DNA from: Paguma larvata
Lineage: Eukaryota; Chordata; Mammalia; Carnivora; Viverridae
Direction of reading: 5' to 3'
Assembly (NCBI GenBank): GCA_030068075.1
Contig: CM057844.1
Span: forward strand, 5,642,001-5,706,000
DNA: 64,000 nt
The notes under the pieces are model-generated. The model did not search any database and was not told where the DNA came from. It was given only the letters and a program-made list of their open reading frames with translations. This document shows positions 38,675-60,604 of this stretch, piece by piece; the stretch's first letter is position 1, and every line of letters begins with the position of its first letter. A program made the translations under genes and the position numbers.

Positions 38675-40776
38675 GAATATATGATCTCATCAGAAGCCAT
38701 GCAGGTCAGAAGGCAGTGGGATAACGTATTCAAAGTTCCAAAAGAAAAGCTCTGTCACCCAAGAATTCTATATCCAGTAACACTGTCCTTCAAGAATTAA
38801 GTAGAAGTCAAAATACTTCCAGATAGATAAAAACTGAGAGAATTATTGCTACCAAAACTGCACTACAAAAAATACCAAGGAGAGTCCTTCTGGTTGAAAT
38901 GAAAGGACACTAGATGGCCACTTGAATCCACATGAAGAAATAAAGAACACCAGTAGAGATAACTACACAGAAAAATATAAAGGGCCATACAAAAGTATTT
39001 TTGTTTGAAATAGTATTTTTCTCCTATCTGATTTAAAACACAATTGCATAAAACACTAACTGTAAAACTGTGTTGGGCTTATAGCATATAAAGAACATTT
39101 TATAAAGATAATATGGTCAATCCACCAAGGAGACATACAATATGCACCAAACAACACAGCCCCAAAATACATGTAGCAAAAACTGACTGAACTGAAGGGA
39201 GACATATAAATTCAACAATAACAGTTGCAGATTTCAATACCTATTTTTAATAATTAGTAGAATTGGAAGATAAACAAAGAAATAGAAGACTCAAACAACA
39301 CTATGAACCAAGCAGACTTAACAGATAGCTGTAGAACACTCCACCCAAACAGCAACAGAATACACATTCTTCTTAAGGGCACACTGAACATTCTCCAAGA
39401 CAGATCATATCCTAGGCCACAAAAGAAGCCTTGACAAATTCAAAATGATTAAAATCATACAAATATCTGATCACAATAGATAAATTAGAAATCAACTGCA
39501 GGAAAATTGGGAAATTCCTTTATATTAAACTGACAATTTAATTAAACAACTAAATTAAACAATACATTCAAGTAACCAATGGATCAAAGAATAAATCATA
39601 AAGGAAATTATAAAATACTTTGAGATGAAAAAAAATACAACATACTAAAACTAGTGGGATGCAGCTAAGACAGTGCTTAGCTAGAGATTTATAGCTCTAA
39701 AATGGTTATATTAAAATATAATTTCAAATATAATTGGATTTCAAATTCAAAATATAACACTTCACCTCAAGAATTTTTCTTTGAGAGAGAGAGTGAGAGC
39801 ACATGAGTGGGGGTGGGGCAGAGGCAGAGGGAGAGAGAGAACCATAAACAGGCTCCATGCCAAGCGCAGCACCAGATACAGGGTTCAATCTGATGACCAC
39901 GAGATCTTGACCTGAGCCGAAATCAAGAGTCAGATGCCTGACCAAATGAGCCACACAGGTTCCCTAAGAATTTTTTTTAAATAGCAAACTAAACCCAAAA
40001 TAAGTGGAAGGAAAGAAATAAAGATTAGAATGGAAATCAATGAATTAGAGAACAGAAAAATTGAGATCAGTCAAAAAAAACAAAAGTTTCTTTAAGAAGA
40101 TAAATAAAACTGACAAATCTTTAGTTAGACTGAACTAGAAAAAAGAAAGAGGTCTCAAATTACTAACATCAGGATGAAAGAGGAGACGTCACTATTTACT
40201 TTACAGAAATAAAAAGAATTACAATAGAATACTATGAACATATACCAACAAATTGGATAATGTAGATGGAAGGGCAAACTCCCAGGAAGACACAAACTCC
40301 TGAAACTGACTCAGGAAGAAAGAAAATCTGAATAGATCTATAACAAATAAAGACACTGAATTAGAAAAACAAACAAACAAACTAACTAACTAAAAACCCC
40401 AAACTACTACCCACAATAAGCCTAGGACCTGATGACATCACTGATGAATTCTACCAACTGTTTAAAGAAGAATTAACACTGATCCTTCACAAGCTCTTCC
40501 AGAAAAGATGAGGAACACTATCTAACTCATTCTATGAGGCTGCATTATGTGATATCAATACCAGACAAAGTTATCATAAGAAAACTACAGATCAATATCC
40601 TTTATAAATATAGCTGTAAAAACCCTCAACAAAATAATAGCAAATATAAAACCATTTTATATTTAAAATTTTCTATTTAAATCCAGCAACATATAAAAAG
40701 GTTTAAATACCATGACCAAGGGGGATTCAACTCCAGAATGCAAGGTTAGTTCAACATATAAAAATCTATCAATGCA
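38675..40776 (+). mobile_element. Outer old L1, part 1 (end of ORF1 and 5' ORF2)
   Basis: The segment begins GAAGCCATGCAGGTCAGAAGGCAGTGGGAT, follows with CCAAGAATTCTATATCCAG (end of ORF1), then EN and RT-linker sequence such as CACACTGAACATTCTCC and CCTAGGACCTGATGACATC. Numerous stops and indels interrupt it. SINE copy 17 lies inside at 39779-39965. It continues at about 41590. Confidence 0.75.
39779..39965 (-). mobile_element. CAN-SINE, copy 17 (antisense, in L1)
   Basis: The plus strand ends GAGCCACACAGGTTCCCT and the SINE is flanked by AAGAATTTTT on both sides. The body is diverged. Confidence 0.88.
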
Positions 40777-41589
40777 CAAGCGTTGACAAGGAGGTAGGAG
40801 AAAAGGGAACCCTTGTGCATTGCTGATGGGAATGTAAATTAATGCAATCACTATGGAAAACACTATGGGAATTCTTCAAAAAAGTAAAAAAATAGAACTA
40901 CCACATTATCCAGCAATCCAACTTCTGGGTATATATCCAAAGGAAATGAAAACAGGATATTAAAGAGATATCTGTACTCACTGCAGAATTATTCACAATA
41001 GCCAAGGCATAGAAACAACCAAAGTTCCATCAGTGGATGAATGGATAAAGAAGATTTGGTATATTTATGAAATGAAATATTACTCAGTCATAGAAAACAG
41101 GAAATACTGTCATTTGCAACAGCATAGACAGACCTTGAGGGCATTACACTAAGTAAAATGAATGAGAAAAAGACAAATACTACATGATATCACTTATATG
41201 TGATTTCTTTCTTTTTTTTTTAAATCAAATTCATAGAAATAGAGAGTACAAAAGTGGTTGCCAGGGGCTGGGGATTGGAGAAATTAGGAGAAAGTTGGTA
41301 AGAGAGTATAAACTTTAAGCTATAAGGTGAATAAAATCTGAGGACCTAATATATAACATGATGACTATAGTTGAAAACCCTGTACTGATAACTGAAATTT
41401 GCTAAGAGACAGAACTTAAATGTTCACACTTCTAGAAAGAAAAAAGATAAATATGTATGGTGACGGATGTGTTAATTAAACGAGAGGAATCCTTTCAGAA
41501 TATATACATATATCCAATAATTGTGATGGGCACTTTAAATATCTTACAGTTTTACTTGTCAATTATATCTCAATAGAGCTGAAAAAACA
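40777..41589 (+). mobile_element. Inner L1 3' end inserted in the outer L1
   Basis: It begins GTTGACAAGGAGGTAGGAG and passes CCCTTGTGCATTGCTGATGGG (the Cys/His region), CCATCAGTGGATGAATGG and the 3' UTR words GGTTGCCAGGGGCTGGGG and GATGTGTTAATTAA. It ends TTATATCTCAATAGAGCTGAAAAAACA. The 5' side is truncated. The outer L1 matches ORF2 order on both sides, so this is a nested insertion. Confidence 0.7.
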
Positions 41590-41818
41590 TCGGTATACTA
41601 TATAAATAAAATAAATGACAAAAATATATGATCATCTCAATAGATACAGACAAAATTTAATCCATGGTAAAAATATTCAACAGACTAGGAAAAAAAGGGG
41701 ATTTCCTCAACCTCATAAAGAGCCTCCATAAAAAATCCACAGCTAACATCATCCACTATAGGGAAAGATTAAAAGTTTCCCCCTTAAGACCAAAAACAAG
41801 ACAAGGATGTCTGTTCTT

Positions 41819-42037
41819 TTTTTTTTAATTTTTTAACGTTTATTTATTTTTGAGAGACATACAGACAGAGTATGAGCAAGGGACGGGCAGAGAGAGAGGG
41901 AGATACAGAATTTGAAGCAGACTCCAGGCTCTGAGCCATCAGCACAGAGCCCGACGCGGGGCTCGAACTCACAGACCGTGAGAGCATGACCTGAGCCGAA
42001 GTTGGCCACTTAACCAACTGAGCCACCCAGGCGCCCC
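41819..42037 (-). mobile_element. CAN-SINE, copy 18 (antisense, in L1)
   Basis: This is a complete antisense SINE ending GAGCCACCCAGGCGCCCC. An exact 16-bp target duplication AAGGATGTCTGTTCTT flanks it (41803-41818 and 42038-42053). CpGs survive in CCCGACGCGGGGCTCG, which suggests a young copy. Confidence 0.96.
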
Positions 42038-42529
42038 AAGGATGTCTGTTCTTGCAACTTCTACCCAACATTGTAGAGGAGGTTCTAGCAAAGACAATTA
42101 GGTAATAAAAAGAAATAAAAAGCATGCCGACTGGAAAGAAAGAAGTAAAACTATCTCTATTCCCAGATGACAACGTCTTGTACACAAAAAATGCTAAGGA
42201 ATCTACAAAACAAATCAGAACCAATAAAGAAGTTTAGCAAGTTTGCAGGATAGAGGATCAATCAATACACAGAAATTAATTGTATTTTTATACGTTAGCA
42301 ATTAAAATGAAATGAAGAAAATGAAGCCACTAAGAAAGCATCAAAGAGAATAAACTACGTAGGAATAAACTGAACAAAGGAAGTGTAAGGCTCATATGGT
42401 GAAAACTACAAAACACCCTTGAAGGAAATTTAGGAAAATGGAAACAAAAGGAAAGATAGTCCATGTTCAAGGTGTAAGATAATAAGATGTCCCTTACTCT
42501 CTAAATTGATCTATATATTCAACACAATC

Positions 42530-42672
42530 CTTTCCTTCCTTCCTTCCTTCCTTCCTTCCTTCCTTCCTTCCTTCCTTCCTTCCTTCCTTCCTTTCTTTCT
42601 TTCTTTCTTCCTTCCTTCCTTCCTTCCTTCCTTCCTTCCTTCCTTCCTTCCTTCCTTCCTTTCTTTCTTTCA
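42530..42672. repeat. Long (TTCC)n microsatellite at a SINE tail
   Basis: About 140 bp of nearly pure TTCC/CTTT repeats: a TTCC block, a short CTTT block near 42592-42608, and a second TTCC block. It sits where the A-rich tail of antisense SINE copy 19 should be, so on the SINE strand it is (GGAA)n. Confidence 0.95.
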
Positions 42673-42880
42673 TTTTACATTTATTTATTTTTGAGACACA
42701 TAGAGACAGAGAACAAGTGGGGTAGGGGCAGAGAGAGAGGGAGATACAGAATCCGAAGCAACTCCAGGCTCCGAGCTGTCAGCACAGAGCCCATGCACAG
42801 CTCGAGTCCATGAACCAACCGTGAGATTAAGACCTGAGCCGAAGTTGGACGCTCAACCGACTGAGCCACCCAGGCACCCC
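42673..42880 (-). mobile_element. CAN-SINE, copy 19 (antisense, microsatellite tail)
   Basis: The body runs from TTTATTTATTTTTGAGACAC to GAGCCACCCAGGCACCCC. A short ACACAA word flanks the body plus tail (42522 and about 42882), consistent with a target duplication inside the outer L1. Confidence 0.92.
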
Positions 42881-43568
42881 GACACAAAATGCTTTTTGTA
42901 GAAATCGCCAAAATGCAAGGAATGCAGAATAGCCAAAACAATCTTGATAAAGAATAAAATTGGAGGACTCAACTTTGAATTTGAAACTTCCTGGTTTCAA
43001 AAATTACTACAAAGCTACAATACAAATCGCATATCTGATAACAGACTTGTATTCAGACTTTACTTAAAAGTTTGCACAACTGTAACAATAAAAGGATAAA
43101 TCAACCAATTTAAAAATGAGGAAAGAATCTGAACAGACCTTTCTCCAAAGAAGATATACAAATAGTTAATAAGCACATGAAAAGATGTTTGGTGTCATTA
43201 GTCATTAAGGAAATGTAAACCCATACCACAATGAGATACAACTTCATACCCACTGGGATGGCCACAGTAAGAATGAGGGATAAAAACTGTGCTGAGGATC
43301 TGGAGAAACTGGAACCCTCACACATTTCTGGTGGGGTCGTAAAATGATGCAAACACTAACCAGTTTGGTAATTTCTCAAAAAATTAAGCATAAAGTTCCC
43401 CTATTGAACCACCAATTCCACTCGTAGGTATATACCCAAGAGAACTGAAAACCCATGTCCACACAGAAGCTGGCACATGAATGTTGATGCCAACATGGTT
43501 CATAATAACCAAAAAGAGGAAATAATCAGAATGTCCATCAGTTGATGAGCGGATAAATAAAATGGGGT

Positions 43569-46195: not shown

Positions 46196-46270
46196 ACCCC
46201 AGACACTGTCTGACTCAGAACATTCAAGACCTGCCCTAGAGTATCATTTTCTTAGAAATAAATTATCAGA

Positions 46271-46622
46271 TCTTCTTTATCCATTTGTCAGTTGATGGGC
46301 ACTTGGTCTCTTTCCATGATTTGGCTATTGTCAAAAGTGCTGCAAGACAGATACTATATGTTTCCACGCATAGGTGGATTTTGAGAGACTAAGCAAAAAC
46401 CAGGGGGGAAGGGAAGAGGGGAAAGGAAAAAAAGACACAGAGAGGGAGGGAGATAGAACATAAGAGACTCTCAAAGACTAAGAACAAACTGAGGGTGAGG
46501 GGGGTGAGGGAGGCGGGAGAGGGGGTGACGGGCATTAAAGAGGGCACGCGTTGGGATGAACACTGAGTGTTATATATAAACCAATTTGGAAATAAACTAT
46601 TAAAAATAAAAAAAATTTAAAA
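46271..46622 (+). mobile_element. Young L1 insertion with 5' inversion (twin priming)
   Basis: A 17-bp duplication AGAAATAAATTATCAGA (46254-46270 and 46623-46639) flanks the insert. Bases 46271-46343 are the reverse complement of the segment at about 60094-60165 of the full-length L1. Bases from 46344 run forward and match from about 60288 to the tail. About 120 bp of source sequence between the two pieces is missing. The forward part includes the G-rich 3' UTR and AATAAACTATTAAAAATAAA tail. This is the classic outcome of twin priming. The insert encodes no protein. Confidence 0.92.
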
Positions 46623-46639
46623 AGAAATAAATTATCAGA

Positions 46640-55130: not shown

Positions 55131-55303
55131 TAGAAATTATTTAAAAGATTTTTTTAAAGTTTGGTTTACTAAGTTGCTAGGCCAAGATAAGACGTATTTA
55201 TGAAAACAGCCACCTCCTCTTATAGGACACATTGTGAAGAAATATATATTAAGTGCATGCAAAGCACTTTTAAATTATTCAATTGAATTATTAACTTACT
55301 GTC

Positions 55304-55323
55304 AAGATTATGTAACCATATTA
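55304..55323 (+). repeat. Left target-site duplication of the full-length L1
   Basis: AAGATTATGTAACCATATTA is repeated exactly at 60585-60604. The upstream base is C, so the left edge is well defined. The pre-insertion junction TC|AAGA reads TCTT/GA on the bottom strand, close to the TTTT/AA preference of the L1 endonuclease. Confidence 0.97.
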
Positions 55324-55540
55324 GGGGGGCGCGCGAGCCGCGGGGCGAGGGACGGCGCGGCAGGCTCGAGGCGGAAGAAGTCGGGCAGCGGAGTCGAGGA
55401 CTCGAAACCCGAACAGCCCACACGCTCCACGCGTCCAGGAGCTGAGGGGAAAGGAAGAGCGAGGTGCAGATACATCTGTTTCTTTGACTTGGTGATTGAA
55501 GGGCAACTTCAAGAAACAACACATAACACATCCAGCCAAA
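55324..55540 (+). promoter_or_regulatory. L1 5' UTR / presumed internal promoter, CpG-rich
   Basis: It starts with a G run (GGGGGGCGCGCGAGCCGCGG), as many L1 5' ends do, and carries about 20 CpGs in its first 115 bp, within AT-rich DNA. Human-type L1 5' UTRs hold an internal RNA polymerase II promoter and are CpG-methylated, so the same role is inferred here. At 217 bp it is short. I saw no YY1-like ATGGCGGC word in it. It may be shortened by truncation, by splicing of the source RNA, or be naturally short. Confidence 0.7.
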
Positions 55541-56434
55541 ATGACGAGACGGAAGAATTCTCCTCAAAAGAGTCTACAAGAAGCAGTGACAGCTCAAGAA
55601 TTAATGAAAAGAGATATAAGCAACATAACAGAACTTGAATATAGAATGTTAATCATAAAACTAATTGCTGGCCTTGAAAAAAGCTTAGATGAATGCAAGG
55701 GGTCCTACGAGGCAAAGTTCAAAGACCTTAAAAACGGTCAGGAAGAATTAAAGAAGACATTGGAAGAAATACAGGGGAAACTGGAAGCAACCACAGCACG
55801 GATTGAAGAGGTAGAGGAAAGAGTTAGTGCATTAGAAGACAAAATCATTGAAAAAGAGGAAGCAGATAAAAAGAGAGAGAAGCTGATCCAGGAACAGGAA
55901 AGGAGAATTCGAGAGCTGAGCGATGCAGTCAAAAGAAACAATATCCGTATCATAGGAGTTCCAGAGGAAGAAGAGAGAGAGAAAGGAGTCGAAGGGGTTC
56001 TGGAACAAATCATTGCTGAGAACTTCCTCAACATGAGAAAGGAAACGGGCATGGAAATCCAAGAGGCACAGAGAACTCCCCTCAGACGTAACTTGAATAG
56101 ACCTTCTGCACGGCACATCATAGTGAAGCTGGCAAAATACAAAGATAGGGAGAGAATCCTGAAAGCAGCTAGGGACAAAAGAACCCTAACATACAAAGGG
56201 AGACCTATAAGGGTAGTAGCAGACTTATCTACGGAAACTTGGCAAGCCAGAAAGGAATGGCAGGACATCTTCAATGTGATGAGCAAGAAGGACATGCAAC
56301 CAAGAATTCTGTATCCGGCTAGCCTGTCATTCAGAATAGAAGGAGAGATCAAGGTTTTTCCCAACAAACAAAAACTGAAAGAATTTATCAAAAATAAGCC
56401 AGCACTGCAAGAGATCCTGAGGGGCATTCTATGA
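55541..56434 (+). CDS. ORF1: L1 ORF1 protein (ORF1p), RNA-binding chaperone
   Basis: ORF1p coats L1 RNA as trimers and helps form the cytoplasmic ribonucleoprotein needed for retrotransposition. The chosen start gives 297 aa, beginning [10 protein letters not shown]. An in-frame ATG at 55496 would add 15 residues, but 55541 (context AAAATGA) gives the more typical basic N terminus. Residues about 35-130 are a heptad-like, Glu/Lys-rich coiled coil. The RRM begins near [10 protein letters not shown] (133-142) and includes [13 protein letters not shown] (about 196-208). The C-terminal domain carries [13 protein letters not shown] (218-230). Human ORF1p has 338 aa, so this coiled coil or N terminus is shorter. 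No stop or frameshift interrupts it. Its TGA overlaps the ATG of ORF2 in the word ATGA. The product is predicted, not shown to be expressed. Confidence 0.95.
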
Positions 56435-59400
56435 AAACAAGGAGGCAAAGAATACAAACTACCAGACACAGCCTTACAAACATGAAACTTACAGATAATA
56501 CAGTGACTGTAAGCCCATATTTTTCAATATTAACACTGAATGTAAATGGACTAAATGCGCCAATCAAAAGACAAAGGATAACAGAATGGATTAAAAAACA
56601 AGACCCATCTATTTGCTGTCTTCAAGAAACTCATCTTAAACCTGAAGACACCTTCAGATTGAAAGTGAGGGGATGGAGAACTATCTACCATGCTACTGGA
56701 AGTCAGAAGAAAGCCGGAGTAGCCACACTTATATCAGACAAATTAGACTTTAAAATGAACGATGTAATAAGAGATGAGGAAGGACATTATATAATAGTCT
56801 CAGGGACCATCCAGCAGGAAGAGCTAACAATTGTAAATATCTACGCACCGAATTCAGGGGCACCCAAATTTGTAAAACAACTAATTACAAACATTAGCAA
56901 CCTCATCGATAAAAATGTCCTAATAGTAGGGGATCTCAACACTCCACTCTCAGCATTGGATAGATCAACAAAACAGAAAATCTCCGCAGAAACAATAGCC
57001 CTGAATGACACATTAGGACAGATGGGCCTCACAGACATCTTTAGGGTCCTTCATCCAGAAGCAAAGGAATTTACATTCTTCTCATCTGCACACGGTACAT
57101 TTTCCAAGATAGACCACATTCTGGGGCACAGGGAAGCTCTGAATAAATATAAAAGAATTGAGATCATACCGTGTACAGTGTCAGACCACAATGCTTTGAA
57201 ACTTGAAATCAACCACAGGAGAAAGCCTGGAAAATATCCAAGAACATGGCGGCTAAGAAATAACCTACTAAAAGATGACTGGGTCAACCGAGCCATCAGA
57301 GAAGAATTTAAAAAATACATGGAAACAAATGAAAATGAAAATACAACAATCCAAACGCTCTGGGATGCAGCAAAGGCAGTCCTGAGAGGGAAATATATTG
57401 CAATCCAGGCCCATCTCAAGAAACAAGAAAAATCAATAACACAAATTCTAACAGCACGCCTAAAGGAACTAGAAGCAGATCAACTAAAACAACCCAAGCC
57501 CAGCAGAAAGAGAGAAATAACAAAGATCAGAGCTCAAATTAACCATATGGAGACAGAAAAGGTAGTGGAACAGATCAATGAAACCAAAAGCTGGTTCTTT
57601 GAAAAAATAAACAAAATAGACAAACCTCTAGCCAGGCTTCTCAAAAAGAAAAGAGAGAGAACTCAAATAAATAAAATCGTGAATGAAAAGGGAGAAATTA
57701 CAACCAATCCCTCAGAGATACAAGCAATCATCAGAGAATACTATGAAAAATTATATGCCACCAAACTTGGCAATCTGGAAGAAATGGACAGCTTCCTAAA
57801 TAGCCACACGCTACCAAAACTCAAACGGGAAGAAATAGAAAATTTGAACAGACCCATAACTAGTGAAGAAATAGAATCCGTTATTAAAAACCTCCCAGCA
57901 AATAAAAGCCCTGGACCAGATGGCTTTCCTGCGGAATTTTACCAGACATTTAAAACAGAGTTAATTCCTATCCTCCTCAAGCTGTTCCAAAAAATTGAAA
58001 CGGAAGGAAAACTCCCGGACTCATTCTATGAAGCCAGCATCACTTTGATTCCCAAACCAGATAGAGACCCAGCAAAGAAAGAAAATTACAGGCCAATATC
58101 CCTGATGAATATGGATGCAAAAATTCTCAACAAGATACTAGCAAATCGAATCCAACAGCATATAAAGAGAATTATCCACCATGATCAAGTAGGATTCATC
58201 CCTGGGTTGCAGGGCTGGTTCAATATTCGCAAATCAATCAACGTGATACATCACATCAACAAAAGAAAAGATAAGAACCATATGATCCTGTCAATAGATG
58301 CAGAAAAAGCATTTGACAAAATACAGCATCCTTTCTTAATAAAAACTCTCGAGAAAGTCGGGATAGAAGGAACATACTTAAACATCATAAAAGCCATATA
58401 TGAAAAACCCACAGCTAATATCATCCTCAATGGGGAAAAATTGAAAGCCTTCCCCCTGAGATCAGGAACACGACAGGGGTGTCCACTCTCGCCACTGCTA
58501 TTTAACATAGTGCTGGAAGTCTTAGCATCAGCAATCAGACAACAAAACAAAATAAAAGGCATCAAGATTGGCAAGGAGGAAGTCAAACTTTCACTTTTTG
58601 CAGATGACATGATACTTTACATGGAAAACCCGACAGAATCCACCAAAAGCCTACTAGAACTGATTCATGATTTCAGCAAAGTTGCAGGATACAAAATCAA
58701 TGTACAGAAATCGGTGGCATTTCTATACACCAACAATGAAGCAGCAGAAAGAGAAATAAAGAAGCTAATCCCTTTCACAATTGCACCAAAAACCATAAAA
58801 TACTTAGGAATAAACCTAACCAAAGATGTGAAAGACCTCTACACTGAAAACTATAAAAAACTTATGAAGGAAATTGAGGAAGACACAAGGAAATGGAAAA
58901 ACATCCCATGCTCATGGATTGGAAGAATAAATATCGTCAAAATGGCAATACTACCCAAAGCAATCTACACATTCAATGCAATCCCAATCAAAATTGCACC
59001 AGCATTCTTCTCAAAGCTAGAGCAAACAATCCTAAAATTTGTATGGAACCACAAAAGACCTCGAATAGCCAAAATAATACTGAAGAATAAAACCAAGGCG
59101 GGAGGCATCACAATCCCAGACTTTAACCTCTACTACAAAGCGGTGGTCATCAAGACTGTATGGTATTGGCACAAAAACAGACGCATAGACCAATGGAATA
59201 GAATAGAAAACTCAGAAATGGACCCGCAAGTATATGGCCAACTAATCTTTGACAAAGCGGGAAAATGTATCCAATGGAAAAAAGACAGCCTCTTTAACAA
59301 ATGGTGCTGGGAGAATTGGACAGCAACATGCAAAAGAATGAAACTAGACCACTTTCTTACACCACTCACAAAAATAAATTCTAAATGGATAAAAGATCTG

Positions 59401-60405
59401 AATGTGAGGCAGGAAACCGTCAAAATCCTAGAGGAGAAAACAGGAAAAAGCCTCTTTGACCTAAGACGCACCAATTTCTTACTCGACACGTCTCCAAAGG
59501 CAAGAGAATTAAAAGCAAAGATGAACTATTGGGACCTCATCAAGATAAAAAGCTTCTGCACGGCAAAAGAAACAACCAACAAAACGAATAGGCAACCAAC
59601 GGAATGGGAAAAGATCATCGCAAATGACATATCGGATAAAGGACTAATATCTAAAATTTATAAAGAACTTACCAAACTCCAAACCCGAAAAACAAACAAC
59701 CCAGTGAAGAAATGGGCGGAAGATATGAATAGACACTTCTCCAAAGGGGACATTCAGATGGCCAACAGACACATGAAACGATGCTCAATGTCACTCAGCA
59801 TCAGGGAAATACAAATCAAAACTACACTGAGATACCACCTCACACCAGTCAGAGTGGCTAAAATGAACAAATCAGGAAACTATAGATGCTGGCGAGGATG
59901 TGGAGAAGTAGGCACCCTCCTACACTGTTGGTGGGAATGCAAACTGGTGCAGCCACTCTGGAAAACGGTGTGGAGGTTCCTCAAAAAAATGAAAATAGAG
60001 CTACCCTATGACCCAGCAATAGCCCTGCTAGGAATCTACCCAAGAGACACAGGAATGCTGATGCATAGGAGCACGTGTACCCCAATGTTCATAGCAGCAC
60101 TTTCGACAATAGCCAAATCATGGAAAGAGACCAAGTGCCCATCAACTGACGAATGGATAAAGAAGTTATGGTACTTATATACAATGGACTACTACGTGGC
60201 AATGAGAAAAAATGAAATCTGGCCATGTGTAGCAAGATGGATGGAACTGGAGGGTATTATGTTAAGTGAAATAAGTCAGTCAGAAAAAGACAGATACCAT
60301 ATGTTTCCACGAATAGGTGGACTTTGTGAAACTAAGCAAAAACCAGGGGGAGGGGAAGAGGGGAAAGAAAAAAAAGACACAGAGAGGGAGGGAGATAAAA
60401 CATAA
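56431..60405 (+). CDS. ORF2: L1 ORF2 protein (ORF2p), endonuclease and reverse transcriptase
   Basis: ORF2p nicks genomic DNA and reverse-transcribes L1 RNA from the nick. The frame has 1324 codons from 56431. A second methionine (residue 18, at 56482, with A at -3) gives 1307 aa and better matches the human N terminus. Human ORF2p has 1275 aa. The apurinic-type endonuclease keeps N37, E66, D168, N170, D228 and H253, the counterparts of human N14, E43, D145, N147, D205 and H230 at a constant offset of 23. The reverse transcriptase keeps D623 (SIDAEKAFD) and the FADD box at 723-726 (D725, D726). The Cys/His motif keeps C1153, C1157, H1165 and C1170. The C terminus extends about 26 residues past the human end with a Glu/Lys-rich tail. 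It overlaps ORF1 by 4 nt. No stop or obvious frameshift was seen, so catalytic competence is plausible but untested. Confidence 0.96.
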
Positions 60406-60432
60406 GAGACTCTCAAAGACTAAGAAAAAACT

Positions 60433-60473
60433 GAGGGTAAGGGGGATGAGGGAGGGGGGAGAGGGGGTGATGG
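60433..60473 (+). other. G-rich 3' UTR tract of L1
   Basis: The tract has five or more runs of at least three G (GAGGG, AAGGGGG, GAGGGAGGGGGG, GAGGGGG) and could fold into a G-quadruplex. L1 3' UTRs of several mammals carry such tracts. A related tract is present in the twin-primed L1 at 46493-46532. Confidence 0.75.
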
Positions 60474-60532
60474 GCATTAAAAAGGGCACATGTTGGGATG
60501 AACACTGGGTGTTATATGTAAACCAATTTGAA

Positions 60533-60538
60533 AATAAA
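60533..60538 (+). terminator. L1 polyadenylation signal AATAAA
   Basis: AATAAA lies 11 nt before the poly(A) tail, followed by CTATTATAAC. This is the normal spacing for an L1 poly(A) signal. Confidence 0.9.
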
Positions 60539-60547
60539 CTATTATAA

Positions 60548-60548
<1 letters not shown>

Positions 60549-60584
<36 letters not shown>
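60549..60584 (+). repeat. Uninterrupted L1 poly(A) tail, about 36 nt
   Basis: The tail is pure A to the start of the right duplication, whose own first bases are A, so the tail length is uncertain by two. Long pure tails shorten and mutate quickly, so this suggests youth. Confidence 0.93.
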
Positions 60585-60588
<4 letters not shown>

Positions 60589-60604
60589 TTATGTAACCAT
60601 ATTA
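60585..60604 (+). repeat. Right target-site duplication of the full-length L1
   Basis: It is identical over 20 bp to 55304-55323. The two copies have not diverged. Confidence 0.97.

Follow-up and report, generated by a model that had tools for sequence, protein, structure and literature searches.

Structure of the element

The stretch analysed here, called the window below, comprises 64,000 nucleotides of Paguma larvata contig CM057844.1 (C22:5642001-5706000 of the 2.44-Gb assembly, the one assembly in which the genome searches were made). At positions 55304-60604 it carries a LINE-1 (L1) retrotransposon with two open reading frames (ORFs), whose 5' untranslated region (5'UTR) is mostly replaced by host exons. 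We believe that this element is very probably an insertion, by target-primed reverse transcription (TPRT), of a young L1 body from a spliced chimeric host-L1 RNA. The features are as follows.

55304-55323 (+): 5' copy of the target site duplication (TSD), 20 bp; 100% identical to 60585-60604 in a repeat search
55324 (+): extra G, 1 nt, absent from the source exon
55325-55463 (+): host exon 1, 139 nt, CpG-rich; inside the match C6:74311075-74311215 (minus), 1 difference (55456)
55464-55501 (+): host exon 2, 38 nt; match C6:74088600-74088637 (minus), 1 difference (55483)
55502-55540 (+): last 39 nt of the canonical L1 5'UTR, beginning exactly at the splice acceptor TTTTCCTTTCCAG|GGCAAC
55541-56434 (+): ORF1, 297 aa, L1 ORF1p; Pfam PF02994 and PF17490, solved LINE-1 ORF1p chains
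56431-60405 (+): ORF2, 1324 aa, endonuclease, reverse transcriptase and Cys/His region; overlaps ORF1 as ATGA
57290 (+): private substitution, ORF2 Q287R; A in 20 aligned copies
58597-58608 (+): reverse transcriptase active-site motif FADD (residues 723-726), present
59887-59940 (+): C-terminal CX3CX7HX4C motif (residues 1153-1170), found by pattern
60406-60548 (+): 3'UTR, with AATAAA close to the end
60549-60586 (+): poly(A) tail, 38 A, the final two common to the duplication
60585-60604 (+): 3' copy of the TSD, found by repeat search

A first-pass annotation of the window had described open ORFs, a perfect 20-bp duplication, an uninterrupted tail of about 36 nt and residues matching human L1 at a constant offset of 23, and all of this was borne out, the tail being slightly longer. 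The two TSD copies (AAGATTATGTAACCATATTA) are identical, and their length is given as 18-20 bp because the first AA merges with the poly(A) tail. The bottom-strand nick, 5'-TCTT/GA, has two mismatches against TTTT/AA; duplication, tail and endonuclease (EN)-type site are the hallmarks of TPRT. ORF1p contains the L1 RRM and dsRBD-like domains. ORF2p residues 29-1297 align with residues 6-1274 of a human ORF2p chain, the two stretches being equally long and the examined part of the alignment gap-free. The EN residues N37, E66, D168, N170, D228 and H253 and the reverse transcriptase (RT) residue D623 are in place, at what we take to be the corresponding human residue numbers. The ORF1p domains, together with the EN, RT and C-terminal Cys/His motif of ORF2p, place the element in LINE-1. 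Scans for relatives of ORF1 and ORF2 in viral contigs, of ORF2 in prokaryote contigs and of ORF1 DNA in plasmids found none, and Rfam on 55200-55600 gave a single weak match (E 0.78), in the upstream flank.

The leader consists of two host exons

The search with 55324-55499 gave five candidates, all of which were scored: the window, one place on C17, two on C6 and one on C10. C6:74311075-74311215 (minus) matched query bases 2-142 at 99% (exon 1), C6:74088600-74088637 (minus) matched bases 139-176 at 97% (exon 2), and C10:35643784-35643922 matched bases 2-141 at 85%. Both exons lie on one C6 strand, about 222 kb apart, each is followed by a GT donor, and CAG precedes exon 2. The end of exon 1 reads GAGCGAG|GTAGGA on C6 (this boundary after the first piece is also given as GGAGCGAG|GTAGGAAGG), and exon 2 lies in TTTTATCCTCAG|exon|GTAAGAAGG or, more widely, TATTTTATCCTCAG|38 nt|GTAAGAAGG. 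The 178-nt leader of the window is thus one G plus 139 nt plus 38 nt, with two differences from C6.

The TSD encloses the leader, which was therefore present in the RNA that was reverse-transcribed. As in an mRNA-LINE-1 5' chimera, sense, spliced host exons with two GT donors on C6 precede an L1 part that starts at an L1 splice acceptor, all within one TSD. In a spliced integrated retrotransposed element (SpIRE) donor and acceptor both lie in L1, whereas here the donor exon is on C6. The source on C6 reads GCGGCGGTGA before GGGGGCGC, and the window reads GGGGGGCGC; the extra G at 55324 is compatible with a reverse-transcribed cap, of which we take such a G to be the signature.

The undecayed CpGs that the first-pass annotation saw in the 5'UTR are real (observed/expected ratio 1.02 for 55324-55540 vs 0.21 for the window), but all 20 of them are in the host-derived leader and none is in the 39 nt of L1 5'UTR. 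There is no ATG in the leader before ORF1, vs 4 in the 5'UTR of the canonical copy L011, so translation should not suffer. A minus-strand open frame of 103 aa (55220-55531) runs antisense to the leader and extends into the flank; its position presumably resembles that of primate ORF0, and it probably arose by chance, the leader being host exon.

Canonical L1 of this genome and the classes of 5' ends

The search with 55324-55823 returned 1,204 candidates, of which 40 were scored, and all copy counts below rest on these 40. In 38 of them, query bases 177-500 were matched exactly (100%). The remaining two were the window and the C17 copy (L009), which matched at 94% over bases 2-498 and was the only one besides the window to match the first 176 nt. 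At the junction, the sequence in canonical copies is TTTTCCTTTCCAG|GGCAAC, which has the form of a textbook 3' splice site, and 11 young copies read on through an L1 5'UTR of about 1.6 kb or more, which in L011 starts with GGGGGAGGAGGCAACATGG and contains repeated units of about 139 bp. The 5'UTR of one full-length copy, L026, exceeds that of the others by about 190 nt, which suggests variation in unit number.

The window, with 39 nt left of such a 5'UTR of tandem units, is therefore not the full-length-like copy of the first-pass annotation. That label assumed an ordinary full-length L1 with a natively short 5'UTR, and the G-rich, CpG-rich sequence directly after the TSD would agree with it. 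Against the 5'UTRs of the 11 young copies, the start of L011 and the host exons that make up the first 178 nt of the window, we give this assumption practically no credence, and we retain the host-L1 chimera.

All 40 copies were classified by the sequence 5' of the junction. The sample favours identity to the window over 324 nt, and its AG|GGCAAC class also favours exons ending in AG. A contiguous L1 5'UTR was present in 20 of the 40 (11 followed all the way to the 5' end, and 9 as far as -840, so that breaks further up could be missed), and L037 breaks within L1 at about -550. Internal L1 splices were found in six copies, with the donor after -1437 (ACT|GTGAGT); five use the acceptor at -355 (L014, L016, L029, L033, L034), and L030 splices from -1437 to AG|TTTTCC, which shows that L1's own donor, too, can be spliced to an ORF1-proximal acceptor. 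In 13/40 copies, foreign sequence runs exactly up to an L1 acceptor; leaving out the window (the query) and L009 (found by its shared leader) gives 11/38. Four of these end at -355 (L015, L039, L042, L046), three at AG|TTTTCC (L018, L023, L035) and six at AG|GGCAAC (window, L009, L019, L027, L028, L041). Ordinary 5' truncation was rejected for the copies without a contiguous 5'UTR: 19 of these 20 break at the three acceptors, for which uniform breakage gives a chance of about 3e-51, the sites having been chosen after inspection. In a crude splice score over 107 AGs, -355 ranked 1st, AG|TTTTCC 9th and AG|GGCAAC 4th, with unused sites 2nd and 3rd; this ranking is suggestive only.

Only the window and L009 share a leader among the 13. 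The reading reached the 3' end in eight of the 13. In five of them (window, L015, L018, L019, L023) TSDs of 15-20 bp lie outside the leader, and none was found in the other three (L009, L027, L028). Source-locus searches cover the leaders of the window, L028 and L019, and host exons with splice sites were established for the leader of the window and L009, for L028 and for L051, a copy outside the 40. For the other ten of the 13 we infer host origin from the junction, several being also CpG-rich by eye, and the case is weakest for L018, L027 and L039, which are not obviously CpG-rich. The L019 leader is contiguous at C5:90299030-90299481 (98%), which may be its source exon or a sibling insertion. 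The leader of L042 (L042:402-485) ends in ACCATGGCCGCGCAGGCGG before the -355 acceptor and resembles a coding first exon; it could give an upstream frame.

Judging from this sample, L1 in this genome may act as a strong exon trap: its three acceptors, all in the last 395 nt or so before ORF1, would take up first exons of host genes in germline cells through cis-splicing or even interchromosomal trans-splicing. In about a third of the youngest copies, most or all of the L1 5'UTR would then be replaced by a promoter-proximal host exon that differs from copy to copy, and some genes would have donated repeatedly. We consider the chances for and against this general picture to be evenly balanced.

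Age and relation to sibling copies

For the body of the window element, the reference was the column majority of 20 other copies, including 11 canonical ones; the fully read copies had been selected by near or full identity over 324 nt. The body departed from the majority at 3 of 5,047 sites, one private (Q287R) and two synonymous. For the stretch 57230-57350 around the private base, only the window matched at 100% among 40 scored of 136 candidates, and no offspring of the window was found among them. The element is very young and coding-intact, in agreement with the first-pass annotation. Intact young copies are not rare here: 16 of the 21 fully read copies have an ORF1 of 297 aa and an ORF2 of at least 1,321 aa (range 1,321-1,325). 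ORF2 is shortened in L010, L016, L019 and L021, and L009 lacks the ORF1 start motif used in scoring, its ORFs being left unscored.

One donor locus, several L1 copies

Exon 1 of the C6 locus heads at least three L1 copies (on C22, C17 and C10), of differing ages and in two splice forms. L009 on C17 has the same exon 1 and exon 2 (93%) and is older, its body differing from that of the window at 84 of 5,046 sites. L051 on C10, also older, has exon 1 (85%) with a start further upstream, joined directly to the L1 GGCAAC without exon 2.

The leader might also be inherited within an L1 lineage as an alternative 5' end, as with SVA_F1 and MAST2, the window element descending from an L009-like chimera. 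The two copies have the same two-exon leader, and they begin to match at the same position, one G in from the start of the window element. The bodies speak otherwise: that of the window is three changes from the majority of 20 copies and far from L009, so descent from L009 is unlikely, and the window sides with L009 alone at one site only (59292). The leader search, moreover, gave five places, three of them L1 copies. We regard such a chimeric lineage as very improbable, and independent capture by the window and L009 as the better reading.

Origin of the fusion RNA

The C6 exon boundaries with their donors and acceptor, the junction at the L1 acceptor, the TSD, the tail and the open ORFs were read directly. 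Starting from these, we propose that the transcript started from a CpG-rich promoter of the host, in a putative transcribed gene on contig C6. Exons 1 and 2 would have been spliced across the intron of about 222 kb, and exon 2 to the 3' splice site just upstream of L1 ORF1, skipping the L1 5'UTR of about 1.6 kb. The chimeric RNA would keep both ORFs and the L1 poly(A) end, and its own proteins could have copied it into C22 by TPRT. We lean towards cis-splicing to an L1 within the same C6 gene, which we hold to be somewhat probable and favour over trans-splicing.

Several observations weigh against this proposal. Two exons and their splice sites are all that marks the C6 locus as a gene. Over 177 nt the leader shows 2 differences, vs 1 private change in 5,047 in the body; this exceeds the expectation for a single age, and L009 agrees with C6 at both 55456 and 55483; a source allele, RT error or editing may account for these differences. 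No TSD was found for L009, which shares the leader. As for cis-splicing, the 40 kb read after exon 2 contained two old L1 fragments in antisense and no young sense L1. Captures of different age would also require several L1s, or long-lived ones, in the C6 gene.

Alternatively, trans-splicing may have linked the host exons to an L1 RNA that was a separate molecule, in which case the C6 gene need not have contained an L1. The size of intron 1 fits this, as long introns favour trans-splicing, and so does the absence of young sense L1s from the 40 kb read beyond exon 2, but only the smaller part of the introns of the C6 gene was read. In human, 15 of 17 donor genes have no intronic LINE-1, which Law & Burns read as trans-splicing (PMC13174262). 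A hint of interchromosomal trans-splicing comes from L028, whose leader consists of two C6 exons (C6:70020157-70020235, donor GTAAGT; C6:70028353-70028514, TAG|...|GTGAGT, with an 89% match on C8), then a 52-nt exon matching C12, then L1. The 52-nt exon has a full-length 100% match at C12:63946146-63946198, flanked by TTGTTTAAG| and |GTAAAG, but it also matches C3:48202453 (96%) and, over 44 nt, C12:71634978 elsewhere on C12 (100%), so it may have moved or may belong to an older chimera. No TSD was found for L028, which weakens the case. Cis-splicing to an L1 missing from this haplotype requires fewer assumptions, and we treat trans-splicing as possible though rather unlikely, and cis-splicing as the preferred origin.

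Expected activity

The first-pass annotation suggested that this copy may be retrotransposition-competent. The proteins do look intact, but competence is doubtful because nearly all of the L1 promoter region is absent. In the human L1 experiments of PMC5860796, promoter activity was about 267-fold over a promoterless vector and fell to about 7-fold once part of the 5'UTR had been spliced out. By analogy with human SpIREs, renewed rounds of retrotransposition are likely to be weak. Without the L1 promoter region, the inserted copy would be a poor source or none at all, unless its transcription is driven by the captured exon or by the new surroundings.

Other L1 sequences in the window

At 46256-46639 lies a 5'-truncated L1 3' end, about 90% like the young element, whose 5' part is inverted (46261-46343 minus, 46344-46631 plus) and which has flanking repeats of about 14 bp (AATAAATTATCAGA); this structure suggests a twin-priming insertion. 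At 40007-43443 there are old L1 fragments with 65-68% identity to the young element.

Comparison with known systems

Exon capture by a retrotransposon has another example in SVA_F1 and MAST2, in which a CpG-rich first exon was spliced onto the non-autonomous SVA and copied along, and the fusion became a subfamily. Capture is alike in our case, but here we see separate captures and not a subfamily.

According to Law & Burns 2026, the human assembly contains 17 mRNA- or lncRNA-L1 (lncRNA, long noncoding RNA) chimeras with long introns, 15 of the chimeras being in sense, and RAP1GDS1 is the donor for two of the 17 (PMC13174262). The window element resembles them in its sense host transcript start, its near full-length L1, its single TSD and the long introns, and several of the human ones also end at a donor (PMC13174262). 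Unlike in the human catalogue, 13 of 40 scored young copies start with foreign sequence at L1 acceptors here, and one donor locus accounts for three L1 copies of differing ages and two splice forms; the human 17 come from a whole-genome pipeline and ours from 40 very young copies, so the samples are not directly comparable. The window element is also like the SpIREs of Larson 2018, which are retrotransposed spliced L1 RNAs without much of the 5'UTR, and 6/40 copies here are of the SpIRE kind; as described there, SpIREs have donor and acceptor both in L1, and the window's donor is a host exon (PMC5860796).

Young dog LINE-1s are likewise carnivore L1s with intact ORFs, a TSD and a long tail, and many copies segregate (PMC12458276, PMC13103737), with 2,366 dimorphic loci having an intact allele (PMC13103737). 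Unlike the window element, they are not described as having host-exon 5' ends in the available portions of these papers. Among titles and abstract openings of open-licence papers, no literature on cat L1 5' ends was found.

Open ORFs, a perfect TSD and undecayed CpGs do not imply a full-length, promoter-bearing source element, and this caution applies to the window. Existing catalogues treat mRNA-L1 chimeras as occasional events. Should host exons indeed be joined at the same three acceptors in a third of the youngest copies, this genome would be a natural system for studying the cis or trans origin of host-L1 fusion RNAs, and would also let one ask about escape from silencing of the L1 promoter and about gene promoters seeding L1 copies. 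The mRNA-L1 chimera as a kind is already known; the frequency, the three recurrent acceptors and the use of one locus three times look new.

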